A stretch of 29,205 nt of DNA. It comes from a virus. The notes beneath the pieces are model-generated. The model saw only the letters and a program-made list of their open reading frames with translations, did no database searches and was not told the DNA's origin. Made by a program: the position numbers and the translations under genes. Numbering within the stretch: the first letter of the stretch is position 1; every line of letters starts with the position of its first letter. Shown here piece after piece: positions 13,428-26,678 of the stretch. The stretch is taken from positions 1 through 29,205 of IMG/VR virus record IMGVR_UViG_3300000956_000023. One strand, given 5' to 3'.

Positions 13428-13502
13428 CAGGCGTTAGCTCAGTGGTAGAAAGCACGCGTCATGGTGCCGCGCGGTCGGGGCGTTCGATTCCCCCACGCCT
13501 GC
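13428..13502 (+). tRNA. Degenerate tRNA, probably tRNA-Pro(UGG)
   Basis: A cloverleaf can be drawn. The acceptor stem 13428-13434 (CAGGCGT) pairs perfectly with 13495-13501, and pairing extends two more bases outward. The D arm is GCTC-AGTGGTAGA-AAGC and the T arm has the loop TTCGATT. The anticodon stem is CGCG/CGCG around a loop in which positions 34-36 read TGG (Pro-UGG). C1-G72 is also typical of bacterial tRNA-Pro. Defects: C13-A22, T31-C39 and one T-stem mismatch, and A instead of the nearly universal U at position 33. No CCA is encoded. It may be a decaying tRNA. Confidence 0.55.
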
Positions 13503-13529
13503 CGGGACCCAAGCAGAATAGGAGGAACC

Positions 13530-15524: not shown

Positions 15525-15554
15525 TTGGCGTCTCGGCGCCTGGTGTGTTAAGAT
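15525..15554 (+). promoter_or_regulatory. Promoter P15549, class A of the phage promoter family
   Basis: TTGGCG (15525-15530), an 18-bp spacer and TAAGAT (15549-15554), with TGT just before the -10 as an extended -10. CCCCGA lies before the -35. The -35 and spacer contain GGCGTCTCGGCGCC (15527-15540), one mismatch from the copies at 24657 and 25876. A leader of about 45 nt with a weak GGGGT/ACCCC hairpin ends in the start-associated sequence GAGAGGACCACCGAG (15590-15604). Confidence 0.8.
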
Positions 15555-16288: not shown

Positions 16289-16318
16289 CGTGCGTCCCTC
16301 CGCCAGGTCGGGTATGGT
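16289..16318 (+). promoter_or_regulatory. Promoter P16313 of the nucleotide cassette
   Basis: CGTGCG (16289-16294), 18 bp, TATGGT (16313-16318). The spacer region shares TGCGTCCCTCCGCC (16291-16304) with GGCGTTCCTCCGCC at 24343-24356, which marks both as members of one family. The leader is about 60 nt and ends in the start-associated sequence GAGAGGACCACCACC (16370-16384). Confidence 0.65.
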
Positions 16319-20852: not shown

Positions 20853-20901
20853 GGCCCTGGCAGGGGAGAGGACCACCACAGTCTTTGACCCTGCCAGGGC
20901 C
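20853..20901 (+). terminator. 13-bp hairpin with a start-associated sequence in its loop
   Basis: 20853-20865 (GGCCCTGGCAGGG) pairs perfectly with 20889-20901. The 23-nt loop contains GAGAGGACCACCACA (20866-20880), the start-associated sequence found before many genes, followed by GTCTTTGA with no start codon at the expected place. No good T-run follows, so a pure terminator role is doubtful. The remaining part of the 148-nt gap up to 20984 has a repeated AGAGCCGT (near 20945 and 20973) and no convincing gene. Confidence 0.8.
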
Positions 20902-20984: not shown

Positions 20985-23201
20985 GTGATAGATGATGCCC
21001 AGAATGTAATGCCTCTCCATCCGATGACATTAGCGCTGAGCTGGCTGCAGCGTGGCGTCCCGGCCTTTCCTGTTGAGATATTCATGCAAGATGGCAGGCT
21101 GCAGAAGCGTCCAGCTACGGCACATAGCCACCATGATGCTTCGCTGGACCCGGACGTGGTGCGGGACATGTTCGTGCAGGCCCAGATGCGCCACGGCGGT
21201 GTGCTGGCCGTGGGCTTGCTTCCGGGCGCGGGCAATCTGATCGTGCTGGACCCGGATGTCAAGACGGACGACCGGGACGGGGTCAGGTTCGCGGACTCGC
21301 TAGGCATCCCGTTTGGCTGGCTGGTGTTCACACCTAGCGGAGGCCAGCACAGGTATTTCTGCAAGCCCGATCCCCTGGCGCGCTATTCGAACAAGGTACC
21401 TCCTGCCTGGAACGGCTTCATCGACATCCGCGTGGATCACGGTTGGGTGGTCGCGCCCGGCACGGTGACGCCGTGGGGCAGCTGGCGCGCCGAGGCTCCA
21501 TGGCCCGACCAGGGACCGCCCAGAGCGCCACAGGCCGTCCTGGAGGCCCTGACCTATGGTGCGGGCCAGTCTGGTGCCACAGGGACGCCTGGCGGGCGTC
21601 TGACGCCGGACAGAGAGGCCCTGCTGCCCGAGCACACGCTGGCAGTGCTCCACTGGCTGGAGACCAATCACGGCGCCCACAACCCATTGCTCATGATGCG
21701 CGCGGGCGACGTGAACTACGTGGCGGTGACGCGTCCTGGCAAGCGTGTCGGGATCTCAGCAACGATCGGGTTCGCGGACACGGGCGCGCTGCACCTGTAT
21801 TCCAGCTCGTGGGTCATTGAGGGCGTGGAACAGGCCGTCACGTGCTACCCGTTGGGCCGCGACACGGACACGCTCGGTGCCAGGGCAGCGGTCGCCGCTG
21901 CCACGCCCGTGCCCGCTGGTCCATTCTTTGTCCGTGGCTCGTTCCAGGTGCAGACCATGGCAGCGGCTGTCATGAGCGACATCCCCTTGGCACTGGACCG
22001 CACCGACGGCGGGCTATGGTATTATCGGGACGGGGTCTGGCGCCCGATGCTGGCAGGCGATGACGTGGTGTTGGCTGGAGTCACTGGCAGGCTCGGTGAG
22101 CGATTCCGCACGAGCCATTACAATAACGTCCGGGAATACATTCGCGGTCAGGCACCCACCATCCGCCCTAGCGACCCGAATCCACGCTACGTGAATACTC
22201 CGGGCGGGATGCTGGAGTGGCGCACGGGGGAGCTCTGCGGGCATGCACCAGAGTTCCAGTCAGTGAATCAGATCACAGCTCGTTGGGAGCCTGGTGCGCG
22301 CTGTCCTGCCTTCGACGCCTGGATCGCTGAGGTGCTGCCGGGCGACCTGGTGGGCCAGTGGCTGGACGAGCTGCTCGGTTATTTGGTGCTGTCCGGGAAT
22401 CCGTTCCAGAAAGCCATCCTCCTGCTCGGACGCGGGCGTAACGGTAAGGGCACATTCATCCGCGTGGTGCAGGCGCTGCTAGGCGACGAGAACTATTCAA
22501 ACGTGACGCTGCAGGGCCTGGTCGGCAACCGCTTCGGCGCGGCGGACATGTACGGGAAGTTGGCGAATATCTGTGGCGATCTGGATTCGTCGCGGCTCGA
22601 GTCCACCGCCATGTTCAAGATGGTAACGGGCGGCGACACCATTTCGGCAGAGCGGAAGTTCGGCCATGCATTCTCGTTCACGCCTTACGCTGTGCCGTTC
22701 TTCAGCGCGAATGCAGTGTTCGGTACGCCCGACACTTCGGATGGCTACATGAGCCGTTGGGTGATCGTGCCGTTCCCGAACAGCTTCGAGGGTGGCGCCG
22801 ACCGCGCGCTGACTGAGCGGCTCACGACCGAGGCCGAGCTAGCCGGCATTTTGGCCAGGGCAATTCGCGGACTGCGCACCCTGATGCTGCGCAATGACTT
22901 CCAGATGGCAGATTCAGTACGCGCAGCTCGCGAGCAATTCGAGCGCGAGTCCGACCCTATCCGCGCGTTCATCGCGGACTGCACAGGCCCGGGCGGGTAC
23001 GCCACCCGGCACGACTTGTGGACGACATATACGGTGTGGGCAGCGGAAAGTGGCCACGCCGCATTGGCTCGTACAAAGTTCTACGCTCGTCTCGAAGAAA
23101 CGGGCCTGGCGCCCACGGCGCTGCAGGGCGTTCGGGCATTCAAAGGCCGCCACATGACCCAGGAAGCGCATTATGGGTCGTTGGTGCCAAAGGTGCAGTA
23201 G
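20985..23201 (+). CDS. PrimPol-SF3 helicase (D5/P4-like replication protein)
   Basis: A 738-residue two-part replication initiator. The N-terminal primase-polymerase domain (about 1-190) shows LIVLDPDVK with Asp89 and Asp91, and SGGQHRYF with His122, the metal and phosphate-binding motifs of the archaeo-eukaryotic PrimPol family. A D5-type linker follows. The C-terminal SF3 helicase has Walker A GRGRNGKGT at 482-490, then NICGDLDSS, and PFFSANAVFGTPDTSDGYMSRW with sensor and arginine-finger regions. No separate DNA polymerase is seen in the window. Start: GTG 20985; ATG 21009 is possible, and neither has a strong ribosome site. The stop lies inside the large inverted repeat. Confidence 0.9.
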   Translation: MIDDAQNVMPLHPMTLALSWLQRGVPAFPVEIFMQDGRLQKRPATAHSHHDASLDPDVVRDMFVQAQMRHGGVLAVGLLPGAGNLIVLDPDVKTDDRDGVRFADSLGIPFGWLVFTPSGGQHRYFCKPDPLARYSNKVPPAWNGFIDIRVDHGWVVAPGTVTPWGSWRAEAPWPDQGPPRAPQAVLEALTYGAGQSGATGTPGGRLTPDREALLPEHTLAVLHWLETNHGAHNPLLMMRAGDVNYVAVTRPGKRVGISATIGFADTGALHLYSSSWVIEGVEQAVTCYPLGRDTDTLGARAAVAAATPVPAGPFFVRGSFQVQTMAAAVMSDIPLALDRTDGGLWYYRDGVWRPMLAGDDVVLAGVTGRLGERFRTSHYNNVREYIRGQAPTIRPSDPNPRYVNTPGGMLEWRTGELCGHAPEFQSVNQITARWEPGARCPAFDAWIAEVLPGDLVGQWLDELLGYLVLSGNPFQKAILLLGRGRNGKGTFIRVVQALLGDENYSNVTLQGLVGNRFGAADMYGKLANICGDLDSSRLESTAMFKMVTGGDTISAERKFGHAFSFTPYAVPFFSANAVFGTPDTSDGYMSRWVIVPFPNSFEGGADRALTERLTTEAELAGILARAIRGLRTLMLRNDFQMADSVRAAREQFERESDPIRAFIADCTGPGGYATRHDLWTTYTVWAAESGHAALARTKFYARLEETGLAPTALQGVRAFKGRHMTQEAHYGSLVPKVQ

Positions 23202-23328
23202 GTGCAGCTAGGTGCAGCACCTGGCAATCTAAGCTACCTCCAGGTGGAACGTGAACAACGCCCTAACCCTGACGGGTTTGTAAAAAGAATGGCTCCAGGT
23301 GCTGCACCTAGCTGCACCTACTGCACCT
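23191..23328. repeat. Perfect 34-bp inverted repeat of iterons, origin candidate
   Basis: Left arm 23191-23224 and right arm 23295-23328 are perfect reverse complements over 34 bp, separated by 70 nt. Each arm contains three iterons of AGGTGCAG (spaced about 10 bp) ending in ACCTGG, so iterons face each other. The inner 70 nt include CCTCCAGGTGG, forming a further CACCTGG/CCAGGTG pair, and an A/T-rich stretch TTTGTAAAAAGAAT. The left arm holds the last codons and stop of the primase-helicase gene. Location and iterons fit the origin bound by this initiator. The other reading is a very stable terminator. Confidence 0.9.
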
Positions 23329-23458
23329 GGCGTCCCTACGCCGGGCACGGCAGAGGACAATGGTGCTGGCCGTCCAGGCGGAGACCTCCGACCCCCCGTG
23401 CGTGTGGTCCGTCTGGGCGGCCATTTGCGACTCGCCCGGGATGCGACTCGCCGTGCAC

Positions 23459-23488
23459 ATGGCGCCGGGACGCCGCGTGTGTTATCAT
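23459..23488 (+). promoter_or_regulatory. Leaderless promoter P23483, class B
   Basis: ATGGCG (23459-23464), 18 bp and TATCAT (23483-23488) preceded by TGT. The spacer region carries GGCGCCGGGACGCC (23461-23474), the exact reverse complement of the element at 24657 and 25876. Two GACTCGCC boxes lie upstream (23429-23436 and 23445-23452). The -10 ends 6 nt before ATG 23495, so transcription should start at or next to the A of ATG. The 167 nt before it (from 23329) hold no gene; a small GGCGT/ACGCC palindrome is at 23329-23342. Confidence 0.78.
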
Positions 23489-23494
23489 GAAGCT

Positions 23495-23737
23495 ATGACC
23501 ACCACACAGCGCTTCATCGGCCGTTGCAAGACCTGCAAGACCGTCCAGGCCGTTGAGGCTGAGGACCCTAACCTGTGGCGCTACGGGCGCACCTGCTGTG
23601 GCCGGACCCCGCAGCTCCTGGCGATCGAAGGCACCAAGTCCGAGAAGAAGTGCGGTGCGCTCTGCCGGAACGCCATGGGTCCGCGCTGCGACTGCTCGTG
23701 CGAGGGCGAGAATCACGGGCGGTCGCATTTCGGGTGA
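23495..23737 (+). CDS. Cys-rich zinc-binding protein, leaderless mRNA
   Basis: An 80-residue protein. ATG 23495 is fixed by the promoter. It contains CKTCK near the start, CCG in the middle and a C-terminal block KKCGALCRNAMGPRCDCSCEG followed by NHGRSH. The last block, with a C...C..A.G..C.C.C.G..HG pattern, recurs in actinophage and actinobacterial small proteins. Nine or ten Cys in 80 residues indicate two or three structural zinc sites. Function is unknown. No Shine-Dalgarno is present, consistent with leaderless translation, which actinobacteria carry out well. Confidence 0.8.
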   Translation: MTTTQRFIGRCKTCKTVQAVEAEDPNLWRYGRTCCGRTPQLLAIEGTKSEKKCGALCRNAMGPRCDCSCEGENHGRSHFG

Positions 23738-23745
23738 CCCCCGAT

Positions 23746-23775
23746 GCGGCGCGCGGACGCCGCATGTGTTATACT
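23746..23775 (+). promoter_or_regulatory. Promoter P23770, class A
   Basis: GCGGCG (23746-23751), 18 bp, TGT and TATACT (23770-23775), preceded by CCCCGA. A perfect 8-bp inverted repeat, ATGCGGCG (23744-23751) and CGCCGCAT (23758-23765), covers the -35 and spacer. The leader is about 30 nt and ends in the start-associated sequence GAGAGGACACCAC followed by ATC (23797-23812). Confidence 0.78.
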
Positions 23776-23812
23776 ACGAACTGTCAGCATTCAACCGAGA
23801 GGACACCACATC

Positions 23813-24256
23813 ATGACCACCATCCGCTTCGAGACCACCACTTGTGACCGCTGCGGCGGTACCGGGTACATGCCATACGCGGCCTACGGTGGCGTGTGCT
23901 TCAAGTGCAACAAGGCAGGCAAGGTGCTCACCCGCAAGGGCCTGGCAGCTCGCAAGGCGTTCTACGCGGCGCGTGTGGCGGCCTGCCAGTCGGTGCCGGT
24001 CGGCGAGCTCCAGGTGGGGCAGAAGATCAGCCAGGATGGCGAGACATGGCGCACGGTTGTGGCGCCGGTCGACCTGGAGGAGACCTCGGGTTACGAGACC
24101 GATGCCAACGGTGAGCGGTTCCCGTTCGTCCGGGTGGAGACCCAGAAGACCAGCATGCTGGTCCGGGCGGACGCCACGGTGCTGGTGTGGTCGCCCGAGG
24201 CCCAGAAAGCGGCCTTCGCCAGGGTCGCCAAGATGTCGGGCGCGATCATCAGCTAG
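23813..24256 (+). CDS. Zinc-finger protein with CxxCxGxG-like motif
   Basis: A 147-residue protein. The N terminus has CDRCGGTGY and, after about 14 residues, CFKCNKAGKVL: two CxxC-x-G-x-G modules as in the DnaJ-type zinc finger. A Lys/Arg-rich helix follows (LTRKGLAARKAFYAARV), then a beta-rich domain (GELQVGQKISQDGETWRTV, SMLVRADATVLVW). Such proteins are frequent in actinophage early regions and are of unknown role; nucleic-acid binding is likely. Start ATG 23813 is defined by the adjacent start-associated sequence, and a terminator follows. Confidence 0.8.
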   Translation: MTTIRFETTTCDRCGGTGYMPYAAYGGVCFKCNKAGKVLTRKGLAARKAFYAARVAACQSVPVGELQVGQKISQDGETWRTVVAPVDLEETSGYETDANGERFPFVRVETQKTSMLVRADATVLVWSPEAQKAAFARVAKMSGAIIS

Positions 24257-24274
24257 GCGGGCAGGGCAGAGCTG

Positions 24275-24304
24275 GAGGGGCATCCGAGAGGGTGCCCCTC
24301 TTTT
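24275..24304 (+). terminator. Rho-independent terminator
   Basis: GAGGGGCA (24275-24282) pairs with TGCCCCTC (24293-24300) and TTTT follows directly (24301-24304). It separates the zinc-finger gene from promoter P24365. Confidence 0.85.
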
Positions 24305-24340
24305 CGCGACTCGCCCGGGAATCAAGACTCGCCGTTGAAC

Positions 24341-24370
24341 GTGGCGTTCCTCCGCCGCATCGGGTATGAT
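24341..24370 (+). promoter_or_regulatory. Promoter P24365, class B
   Basis: GTGGCG (24341-24346), 18 bp, TATGAT (24365-24370). Two GACTCGCC boxes lie upstream (24308-24315 and 24326-24333), the first within a 15-bp stretch identical to 23427-23441. The spacer has GGCGTTCCTCCGCC (24343-24356). The leader, about 40 nt, contains GGTC/GACC and ends in GAGAGGACCACCACA (24402-24416). Confidence 0.78.
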
Positions 24371-24416
24371 GAGGTCAAGACGTTAAGACCGACTCCCACC
24401 CGAGAGGACCACCACA

Positions 24417-24611
24417 ATGAACCGCATCTTCACCGCCACCGCTCTGCTCCTGGTCTCGTTCCTGGCTGTGTTCGCTGGCCAGCACGTCGCGGTTGTCGAC
24501 GCGCACGGGCATCACGTTGATTCGCGCCACGTCGCGGTCGACGCCGAGCTGAGCGGCCGCATCTGCCGCCGTGGCGTCGCGGCCCTGGCGGTGGACGAGC
24601 ACCGCGCCTGA
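24417..24611 (+). CDS. Small secreted or membrane protein
   Basis: A 64-residue protein with a clear N-terminal export signal: MNR, a hydrophobic core (IFTATALLLVSFLAVFAG) and a small-residue turn. The mature part is His- and Asp-rich (VDAHGHHVDSRHVAVDAE), ending in a possible disulfide-free RICRRG region. If exported, the His cluster may bind metal ions. A role in superinfection exclusion or envelope binding is possible, but unsupported beyond topology. Confidence 0.75.
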   Translation: MNRIFTATALLLVSFLAVFAGQHVAVVDAHGHHVDSRHVAVDAELSGRICRRGVAALAVDEHRA

Positions 24612-24624
24612 GCAACCCACCTAG

Positions 24625-24654
24625 ATCGGGGGCATCCACCAGGGTGCCCCCGAT
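24625..24654 (+). terminator. Terminator-like hairpin abutting a promoter
   Basis: ATCGGGGGCA (24625-24634) pairs perfectly over 10 bp with TGCCCCCGAT (24645-24654) around a 10-nt loop. No T-run follows: the next base is the first of the -35 at 24655. It resembles the hairpin at 24275 in its CATCC/GGTGC loop borders and likely stops upstream transcription. Confidence 0.75.
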
Positions 24655-24684
24655 GTGGCGTCCCGGCGCCCGGTGTGTTACAAT
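24655..24684 (+). promoter_or_regulatory. Leaderless promoter P24679, class A
   Basis: GTGGCG (24655-24660), 18 bp, TGT and TACAAT (24679-24684), preceded by CCCCGA. The spacer element is GGCGTCCCGGCGCC (24657-24670), identical to that at 25876-25889. The -10 ends 6 nt before ATG 24691, the same distance as at 23488/23495, so the mRNA should be leaderless. Confidence 0.82.
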
Positions 24685-24690
24685 GGGATC

Positions 24691-24882
24691 ATGAACAAGA
24701 AGAGCACCGCCACCAAGATGTACACCTACTGCAGCGGCACCTTCGAGGTGCTCGGCCACACGGACGACCTGGCCGTGGCCGAGCGCGAGGCCAAGGCCGC
24801 TGGTGGCTACGTGAAGGACCGCGTTGGCCGCGTTGTCTACCGTACCGTGGCGTTCACGCGCAACGGCGTTGGGCGCAACTGA
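24691..24882 (+). CDS. 63-aa basic protein, leaderless mRNA
   Basis: A 63-residue protein beginning NKKSTATKMYTYCSG, then FEVLGHTDDLAVAEREAKAAGGYVKDRVGRVVYRTV. The central helix (DDLAVAEREAKAAGG) flanked by strands resembles small alpha/beta phage proteins of unknown function. No ribosome site is present. The start is fixed by the promoter that ends 6 nt upstream. It shares a transcript with the gene at 24918, which has its own start-associated sequence. Confidence 0.75.
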   Translation: MNKKSTATKMYTYCSGTFEVLGHTDDLAVAEREAKAAGGYVKDRVGRVVYRTVAFTRNGVGRN

Positions 24883-25205: not shown

Positions 25206-25218
25206 GCCCGACTCGCCG

Positions 25219-25260
25219 GGCGTCCCAGATGCGGCCCTGGGACGCCTGGTACGGTAGGAT
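25219..25260 (+). promoter_or_regulatory. Promoter P25255 with 10-bp inverted repeat
   Basis: GCGGCC (25231-25236), 18 bp, TAGGAT (25255-25260). A perfect 10-bp inverted repeat, GGCGTCCCAG (25219-25228) and CTGGGACGCC (25237-25246), flanks the -35, which is exactly in the 8-nt loop region; the arms contain the GGCGTCCC / GGGACGCC half-sites found in other promoters. One GACTCGCC box is at 25210-25217. It could serve as upstream terminator, operator, or both. The leader ends in GAGAGGACACCAC (25283-25295). Confidence 0.72.
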
Positions 25261-25844: not shown

Positions 25845-25873
25845 GTCGAGACCGGGCGCCAGGGCACCCCGAT

Positions 25874-25928
25874 TTGGCGTCCCGGCGCCCGGTCTGTCAT
25901 ACTGATCTTACGGCTCCCGCCGGGAGCC
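25874..25928 (+). promoter_or_regulatory. Promoter P25898, class A, with leader hairpin
   Basis: TTGGCG (25874-25879), 18 bp, TGT and CATACT (25898-25903), preceded by CCCCGA. The element GGCGTCCCGGCGCC is at 25876-25889. Near the predicted transcript start a 7-bp hairpin forms between GGCTCCC (25912-25918) and GGGAGCC (25922-25928) with a 3-nt loop. The start-associated sequence GAGAGGACCACCACC (25935-25949) then abuts ATG 25950. A 5'-terminal hairpin would protect the mRNA. Confidence 0.82.
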
Positions 25929-25949
25929 ACGACCGAGAGGACCACCACC

Positions 25950-26678
25950 ATGTCACCGAAGATGAGCGTCATCCAGGCCCTGCTGGCGAAGGCTGAGGGC
26001 ACCGACAACCCGGCAGAGGCCGAGGCCTTCACCCAGAAGGCCGAAGAGCTGATGCTGAAGCACGGCATCGATGTGGCCATGTTGGCCGCGAAGCCGGGGC
26101 AGAAGGCCGAGTCCATCGTCCGGCGCGAGTACGAATTCACTGGCGCCTACCGGCAGGTCCGCATGGTCGGGACCTTCGCCGTTGCCAGGGCCTTCGCCGA
26201 TGGGGCGATCGTCGGGTTCAAGCGCGAGCGTGGCAACACGGTCACCCTTACCCTGGTCGGGTTCGAGAGTGCGTTGAACGACCTCGAGCTCCTGCTGTCC
26301 AGTTTGCACGTGCAGAGCATCACGGCCTTGACCGCGTGGTGGGCAACTAAGCCGACCTGGCGCTTTTACGAGCGCACCGAGAAGCACGAGATGTTCATGG
26401 CTCGTCGGTCGTTCGTGCAGGCGTTCTACTCGGGTGCGGCGAGCCGCATTCGGGAGGGCTTCAGCAAGGCCGTTGCGACGGCGGGCACTGGCACCGACCT
26501 GGTGTTGGTGGATCGGAAGCGCCAGGTCCGCGATTGGGTGAACGAGAACGTCGGGCCGTTGGGGAAGGCCCGTGGGCGCGGGATGAACGGCGGGGTCGGC
26601 AGTGGGGCAGGGTTCGCTGCAGGGCGAAGCGCCATGACCCAGAAGGTCGGCGCCGGGCGTGGGGCGATCGGAGCCTAG
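25950..26678 (+). CDS. DUF2786-domain protein
   Basis: A 242-residue protein. Residues 6-45 (VIQALLAKAEGTDNPAEAEAF, then AEELMLKHGID) match the DUF2786 domain, a short helical module of actinobacterial and phage proteins with unknown role. The middle (REYEFTGAYRQVRMVGTFAVARAFADG, then VGFESALNDLELLLSSL) resembles the extended phage members of this family. The C-terminal 70 residues are Gly/Arg-rich (GKARGRGMNGGVGSGAG), suggesting nucleic-acid binding. Start set by the start-associated sequence. The stop is inside a CCTAGG palindrome, followed by a terminator. Confidence 0.85.
   Translation: MSPKMSVIQALLAKAEGTDNPAEAEAFTQKAEELMLKHGIDVAMLAAKPGQKAESIVRREYEFTGAYRQVRMVGTFAVARAFADGAIVGFKRERGNTVTLTLVGFESALNDLELLLSSLHVQSITALTAWWATKPTWRFYERTEKHEMFMARRSFVQAFYSGAASRIREGFSKAVATAGTGTDLVLVDRKRQVRDWVNENVGPLGKARGRGMNGGVGSGAGFAAGRSAMTQKVGAGRGAIGA

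Follow-up and report, generated by a model that had tools for sequence, protein, structure and literature searches.

The closest described counterpart of the arrangement reported here is found in the cluster K phages, in which a repeated promoter is overlapped by an inverted repeat (the ESAS, 17-bp imperfect inverted repeats around a SigA-like promoter) and a short conserved tag (the start-associated sequence or SAS, the 13-bp GGGATAGGAGCCC) is present just before many start codons in the half of the genome that holds the non-structural genes. Some genes there lack the tag: TM4 gene 79 is reported to have an ESAS without an SAS (PMC3203893), and ESAS repeats are reported to run as far as the first start-codon base in K4, K5 and K7 phages (Yasnaya_Polyana and single K5 and K7 cases; PMC12699233).

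In M. tuberculosis, 26% of the genes for which a primary start site is known are reported to be leaderless (PMC3898074), and leaderless mRNAs make up about a quarter of mycobacterial transcripts (PMC3898074, PMC4633059); in mycobacteria a start codon at the 5' end is reported to work only as ATG or GTG, and leaderless translation to be as robust as leadered translation (PMC4633059). Leaderless transcripts have also been predicted for the cluster O promoters PL1, PR2 and PL2 and for Adephagia gene 90 (PMC4351075, PMC11373665), where a SigA-like promoter places +1 on the first codon. Our literature search found nothing closer than these cluster K, cluster O and Adephagia statements; among the papers covered, PMC11373665 alone mentions start-associated sequences, mycobacteriophages and leaderless transcripts together, and PMC12699233 has no word that begins with "leader".

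Here we analyze a 29,205-base fragment of an uncultured virus (the window, by which we mean this whole stretch of DNA). Like cluster K, it has a repeated promoter overlapped by an inverted repeat, a tag before many starts, and some genes without the tag. Its two untagged genes resemble the leaderless genes of M. tuberculosis and M. smegmatis in having an ATG at the predicted +1 and no Shine-Dalgarno sequence; those are host genes with mapped transcription starts, whereas the window pair is called from sequence. The published text available for cluster O and Adephagia does not describe their promoters as copies of one that also drives tagged genes, unlike the situation in the window. We argue, with a probability that we put at about 0.77, that the two genes are leaderless and that in the window leader and tag together form an optional module attached to a shared and probably co-regulated promoter.

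The Window and Its Relatives

The window is of actinophage type. A capsid-like protein and a D5-type primase/helicase are recognizable in it, followed by small genes, and the relatives of the primase/helicase are primases of actinophages and other phages. The phage collection contained no close relative (megablast gave 0 matches and distant blastn seven weak local ones), and the window primase had 0 relatives among the viral_contigs. The exact promoter patterns had 0 matches elsewhere, the start-tag pattern matched two contigs (one copy each, both without the dyad promoter), and the capsid identified three short related contigs (56–78% identity), none of which has the dyad promoter; no relative with the window's promoter family was found by these primase, promoter-pattern, start-tag and capsid searches. 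An Rfam search gave 0 matches.

A Repeated Promoter Family

The right-hand part of the window appears to be a row of small transcription units under one repeated promoter, the features of which are collected in Table 1. The dyad GGCG-N6-CGCC, allowing at most one mismatch and starting 22 nt before a −10 hexamer, occurs eight times on the + strand and 0 times on the − strand, while 100 dinucleotide shuffles gave a mean of 0.56 and a maximum of 3 such arrangements; exact dyads with a −10 number six, compared to 0.03 in the shuffles. The offset is rigid: the window has ten exact dyads, of which six are followed by a −10 at offset 22, with no more than one at any other offset.

Table 1. Positions of promoter, tag and gene features in the window.
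Feature	Position	Strand	Remarks
Dyad, promoter of 15605 (leadered)	15527..15540	+	−10 TAAGAT 15549–15554
Dyad (1 mismatch), promoter of TTG-started gene 16385 (leadered)	16291..16304	+	−10 TATGGT 16313–16318
P1 dyad GGCG-N6-CGCC (leaderless)	23461..23474	+	exact; first base 22 nt before first −10 base
P1 extended −10, TGT + TATCAT	23480..23488	+	sequence
Gene 1, 80 aa, Cys-rich CDCSCEGENHG family (phrog_6842)	23495..23737	+	predicted leaderless, ATG at +1
Dyad, promoter of 23813 (leadered)	23748..23761	+	−10 TATACT 23770–23775
CxxCGGxG protein gene with start-associated sequence CCGAGAGGACACCAC	23813..24256	+	
Dyad, promoter of 24417 (leadered)	24343..24356	+	−10 TATGAT 24365–24370
Start-associated sequence GAGAGGACCACCAC before gene 24417–24611	24402..24415	+	
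P2 dyad GGCGTCCCGGCGCC (leaderless)	24657..24670	+	
P2 extended −10, TGT + TACAAT	24676..24684	+	sequence
Gene 2, 63 aa, no homologue found	24691..24882	+	predicted leaderless, ATG at +1
Dyad (1 mismatch), promoter of 25296 (leadered)	25233..25246	+	−10 TAGGAT 25255–25260
Dyad, promoter of 25950 (leadered)	25876..25889	+	−10 CATACT 25898–25903
Start-associated sequence GAGAGGACCACCAC before gene 25950–26678 (DUF2786)	25935..25948	+	

By eye, TGn precedes the −10 in five of the eight family promoters, both leaderless ones included, so they look like extended −10 promoters with the dyad in place of a −35 element. The −35 region of the family fits TTGACA poorly, and a standard sigma-70 scan did not list the family promoters and found no promoter excess (2 compared to 2.6 in shuffles); it missed them because the dyad stands in for the −35. 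Since the dyad spans the −35 region and the spacer, we infer that a regulator binds there. A phage regulator would be well positioned at such a site, which suggests that the dyad is its operator.

Could the dyads instead be terminator hairpins, with −10-like strings near them by chance and no promoter at all? The dyads could fold, the one at 23460 was flagged as terminator-like, and there are larger palindromes at 25849–25895 and 25216–25249, but terminators would not explain why the −10 keeps a constant 22-nt offset and is found with the dyad on a single strand, nor why the dyads are consistently positioned ahead of tagged starts. We consider this reading very improbable.

Predicted Leadered and Leaderless Genes

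The preliminary description held that the same promoter family yields both kinds of gene, two with a −10 that ends exactly 6 nt before the ATG and the rest with leaders that end in a start-associated sequence, and our measurements agree with this division. The distances from the −10 to the start codon at the other six promoters are 50, 66, 37, 46, 35 and 46 nt (in the order of Table 1); with transcription assumed to begin 7 nt after the −10, the predicted leaders are 44, 60, 31, 40, 29 and 40 nt long. The tag GAGAGGAC(C)ACC is directly before the start codon at all six of these promoters. An untranslated copy of the tag is also present in the loop of a hairpin at 20853–20901.

The window tag GAGAGGAC(C)ACC occupies the position that the 13-bp SAS has in cluster K, and a 14-bp dyad with a poor −35 is found where cluster K has its 17-bp repeats around a SigA-like promoter. 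The motifs (GGCG-N6-CGCC and GAGAGGACCACC in the window, the 17-bp repeats and GGGATAGGAGCCC in cluster K) are unrelated and, judged by these motifs, the window system is analogous to that of cluster K and not the same.

At the two remaining promoters the −10 ends exactly 6 nt 5' of an ATG (TATCAT at 23483–23488 with ATG at 23495, and TACAAT at 24679–24684 with ATG at 24691). The order of elements is the same in both: the dyad, GCGTGTGT, TATCAT, six bases and ATG in 23461–23497, and the dyad, CGGTGTGT, TACAAT, six bases and ATG in 24657–24693. As had been claimed, neither has a Shine-Dalgarno sequence; in the 21 nt upstream the longest matches to the anti-Shine-Dalgarno complement are GTG (3 nt) before 23495 and GGTG (4 nt) before 24691, and both end 15 nt 5' of the ATG, within the promoter. 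Of the window's 307 ATG open reading frames with 60 or more codons (202 on the + strand and 105 on the −), genes 23495 and 24691 are the only two with a −10 (TANNNT within two mismatches of TATAAT) at a gap of 6–7 nt. Random ATG placement puts an ATG reading frame at a gap of 6–8 nt from two of the eight promoters with P = 0.012, and both at a gap of exactly 6 with P = 0.0014; the position statistic alone is modest, because P rises to 0.084 once GTG and TTG are permitted at a gap of 6–8. Both genes have the features of actinobacterial leaderless genes, namely a −10 located 6–7 nt before the start, no Shine-Dalgarno sequence and an ATG start.

The two genes might be leadered after all, made from upstream transcription or read-through and translated from an in-frame codon at 23360 or 24655, or from the ATG by 70S scanning. 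Their reading frames do stay open upstream, from 23360 and 24655, and the in-frame extension of gene 1 (23360–23494) looks coding-like with a GC3 of 0.82 versus 0.85 in the gene itself, so composition does not settle the start of gene 1. Against this, translation from the upstream codons would put the promoter and dyad inside coding sequence, the homologues of gene 1 in Arthrobacter phages start at the equivalent Met, no Shine-Dalgarno sequence precedes either ATG, and the two promoters match those that have clear leaders. We regard a leadered origin as unlikely, gene 1 as probably leaderless and gene 2 as probably so with slightly less assurance.

The 34-nt core of the leaderless promoter at 24657 differs at 5 positions from the leadered cores at 15527 and 25876; its differences from the other leaderless core number 12. 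The cores are thus not split by mode, and leader status has changed without a matching change in the promoter.

Homologues of Gene 1

Gene 1 matches the phrog_6842 profile (E = 1.1e-8) and shares the C-terminal motif CxCxCxGxxxHG of that family, the Cys residues of which are invariant in all nine aligned proteins; in Pfam, neither gene 1 nor gene 2 scored above the cutoff of any family, and nor did eight homologues of gene 1. Gene 2 had no homologue in phages (E up to 1) or in viral_contigs, so its case stands on the window alone. For gene 1 we collected 51 homologous loci (10 from named phages, for which 70 matching records were listed, 38 from viral_contigs and three from genome contigs), which include duplicates and were collapsed by eye to 25 upstream contexts. 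A context was scored as leaderless if a −10 ends 5–8 nt before an in-frame start and a −35 lies 16–19 nt from it.

Nine of the 25 contexts are leaderless by this test, all at an ATG with a gap of 6–7 nt, and 16 are not. The nine are those of Anjalivirus, the XFactor/Shauna1 type, Nebkiss, Caron and contig loci L024 (which passed the lax score and failed the strict one), L030, L037, L038 and L048. That of L030 is a full-consensus TTGACA-N16-TATAAT-N6-ATG. The XFactor-type promoter and gene move as a unit, since the same promoter is present in L026 and L027 where the sequence further upstream is different. L028 was scored by script only, and Imvubu and the Streptomyces locus L052, whose sole lax match is at an upstream TTG, were placed among the 16; an identical lax rule throughout gives 11/25 instead of 9/25.

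As controls we used the annotated genes of Swim, Caron, XFactor and part of Nebkiss (312 in all, after exclusion of two frameshift-joined genes, two cut by a sequence end and four of the gene 1 family). Among these, 18 of 312 pass the same test, as do 13 of the 101 that have an upstream gap of at least 30 nt. The gene 1 family differs from all controls with Fisher P values of 3e-5 (lax) and 2e-5 (strict), and from the gapped controls with 0.015 (lax) and 0.009 (strict), values that carry no tree correction; the enrichment over gapped controls is real but modest.

Because −10-N6/7-ATG recurs at gene 1 homologues in unrelated actinophages, leaderless transcription is likely. The earlier proposal that the identical spacing reflects selected leaderless transcription is thus well supported by sequence in its leaderless part, given the spacing, the missing Shine-Dalgarno sequences, the uniqueness of the two sites and the recurrence, while the case for "selected" comes mainly from the gene 1 homologues; that selection maintains the 6-nt spacing is likely but unproved.

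Predicted Two-Mode Use of One Promoter in Other Phages

The Mycobacterium phage Fionnbharth has an extended start-associated (ESAS) promoter, TTGACA-N16-TAGA[CG]T, 7 nt before the ATG of genes 81, 90 and 92, and the same promoter 37–40 nt before the ATG of genes 82, 86 and 91, where it is followed by the start-associated sequence or a variant of it. The annotated GTG starts of genes 81 and 90 overlap the −10, and the ATG 9 nt further on is the better start in each; these two genes thus appear to be annotated with a start called inside the −10. A literature search for promoter or RNAseq work on Fionnbharth found no Fionnbharth paper among the matches listed. The Microbacterium phage Caron (L056) has a repeated TTGCGC-type promoter 6–7 nt before the ATG of genes 74, 75, 77 and 60, and 36 nt before that of gene 54, there with GATAGGAGCTC. 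As read from its sequence in this analysis, Caron is like the window in having a single repeated promoter with leaderless and leadered genes, and unlike it in the promoter and tag sequences themselves. The predicted two-mode use of one promoter is therefore found in three unrelated phages (the window, Fionnbharth and Caron), two of which are cultured.

The same gene families occur in both modes. Caron gene 74 is a homologue of gene 1, and members of this family are leaderless in both the window and Caron, whereas those of TClif and Kratio are tagged with the start-associated sequence of cluster K. (Kratio gene 65, in which the ESAS abuts the ATG, was not counted as leaderless because no TANNNT was found there.) The leaderless Fionnbharth gp92 resembles the tagged CxxCGGxG protein of window gene 23813 over 37 residues of a zinc-finger-like part with 43% identity (E = 1.6e-4, against a set of just 21 proteins), and phrog_4046 is matched by both. 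Similarly, phrog_6361 matches both Fionnbharth gp81, a leaderless SprT-like gene, and Caron gp54, which is annotated as SprT-like and has a leader.

These switches bear on why the two window genes lack a leader. The preliminary description suggested that they could thereby escape a control acting through the start-associated sequence. On such a reading, a trans-acting factor would act on the tag and the two small genes, having lost it, would be made when the tagged genes are off. At most family promoters the tag is conserved beyond Shine-Dalgarno pairing, and the hairpin with a tag copy in its loop is what a titrating or controlled element might have. We know of no such factor. For the analogous sequence of cluster K the role is stated to be unknown (PMC11373665, PMC3203893), and members of one family can be tagged in one phage but leaderless in the next; the tag is thus not a fixed property of gene families, which argues against a gene-specific need to escape. 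The gene-specific form of the proposal is weakened and as a whole we find it unlikely, although the tag may have a role in timing.

It is also possible, though we doubt it, that the genes are leaderless to no effect: a compact insertion or deletion would have removed the leader at no cost, since actinobacteria translate leaderless mRNAs equally well. The robustness of leaderless translation reported for mycobacteria (PMC4633059), the switching of mode between phages and the promoter cores common to both modes fit this, but a neutral change does not readily account for a gap kept at 6–7 nt across unrelated phages or for the enrichment of the gene 1 family over controls.

Discussion

The reading that we prefer, an optional leader and tag on one shared promoter, would work as follows: in six units the promoter would be followed by a leader of 29–60 nt whose last part, next to the start codon, is a start-associated, Shine-Dalgarno-like tag, while genes 23495 and 24691, with neither leader nor tag, would have their ATG on the predicted transcription start and so give leaderless mRNAs, translated by the 5'-AUG route that is common in Actinobacteria. 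Promoter timing would be common to both classes and translation initiation would differ. The motifs, their spacings, the uniqueness of the two sites and the recurrence in other phages are direct readings of the DNA; from them we infer the exact transcription start and the leaderless translation.

More tentatively, and with more against it than for it in our estimation, unrelated actinophages may have converged on a scheme in which a regulated promoter family fires leaderless and tagged mRNAs together, and the gene-by-gene presence of leader and tag adds a second, translational layer of timing. If so, tagged genes might, for example, be subject to a phage factor or to the state of the ribosome and leaderless genes not.

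Leaderless genes as such are nothing unusual in Actinobacteria, and the point of interest is that a promoter is used in modular fashion, with and without leader and tag. What start-associated sequences do has been an open question since 2011, and the same promoter before tagged and leaderless genes provides natural paired controls in which the promoter is constant and the mode of initiation varies. Because Fionnbharth and Caron are cultured, a direct test is possible.

Predicted leaderless starts in Fionnbharth and Caron

The annotated GTG starts of genes 81 and 90 of Mycobacterium phage Fionnbharth (L060 positions 23474 and 26411) overlap the −10 of an ESAS promoter (ESAS, extended start-associated sequence, is the cluster K promoter repeat), and the ATG that lies 9 nt 3' of each annotated GTG would fit a leaderless start. 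Genes 60, 74, 75 and 77 of Microbacterium phage Caron (L056 positions 38034, 45067, 45392 and 45894) have a common promoter type that ends 6-7 nt before the ATG, and from their sequences these four genes are apparently leaderless as well.

Homologues of gene 1

The CTTGACNCGTAANNCGGTTACGNNTAAAGT promoter and the homologue of gene 1, the small Cys-rich gene of the window, form a retained cassette in phages at L005, L011, L026, L027 and L028, and the sequence upstream of it differs between phages. In XFactor and Shauna1 this cassette lies immediately 5' of a gene annotated as a transcriptional repressor. Five other loci (L033, L039, L047, L052 and L054) encode longer proteins that carry a C-terminal domain joined to the Cys motif of gene 1; phrog_4265 and phrog_18425 match this C-terminal part in L033, L052 and L054.

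Structured elements in the window

Structured elements and tRNA gene of the window
Feature	Position	Size	Location or content
tRNA-Thr (GGT) gene	13428-13503		
Perfect hairpin	20853-20901	13 bp	Encloses a copy of the start-associated sequence
Perfect inverted repeat	23191-23328	34 bp, 70-nt loop	Primase gene end, directly upstream of gene 1

The start-associated sequence in the hairpin is an exact copy (20866-20879) with no ATG downstream of it, and it is partly base-paired on folding (z = −5.3). A 20-codon open reading frame begins at TTG 20885 within the hairpin region, and this element, which lies ahead of the primase gene, is possibly a controlled leader reading frame or a decoy. The arms of the inverted repeat contain TAGGTGCAGC direct repeats and its fold has z = −10.7; it is a candidate replication origin or strong terminator.

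Palindromes at 24625-24654, 25216-25249 and 25849-25895 are immediately upstream of promoters or overlap them. They may terminate transcription of the unit before them, which would make each unit monocistronic.
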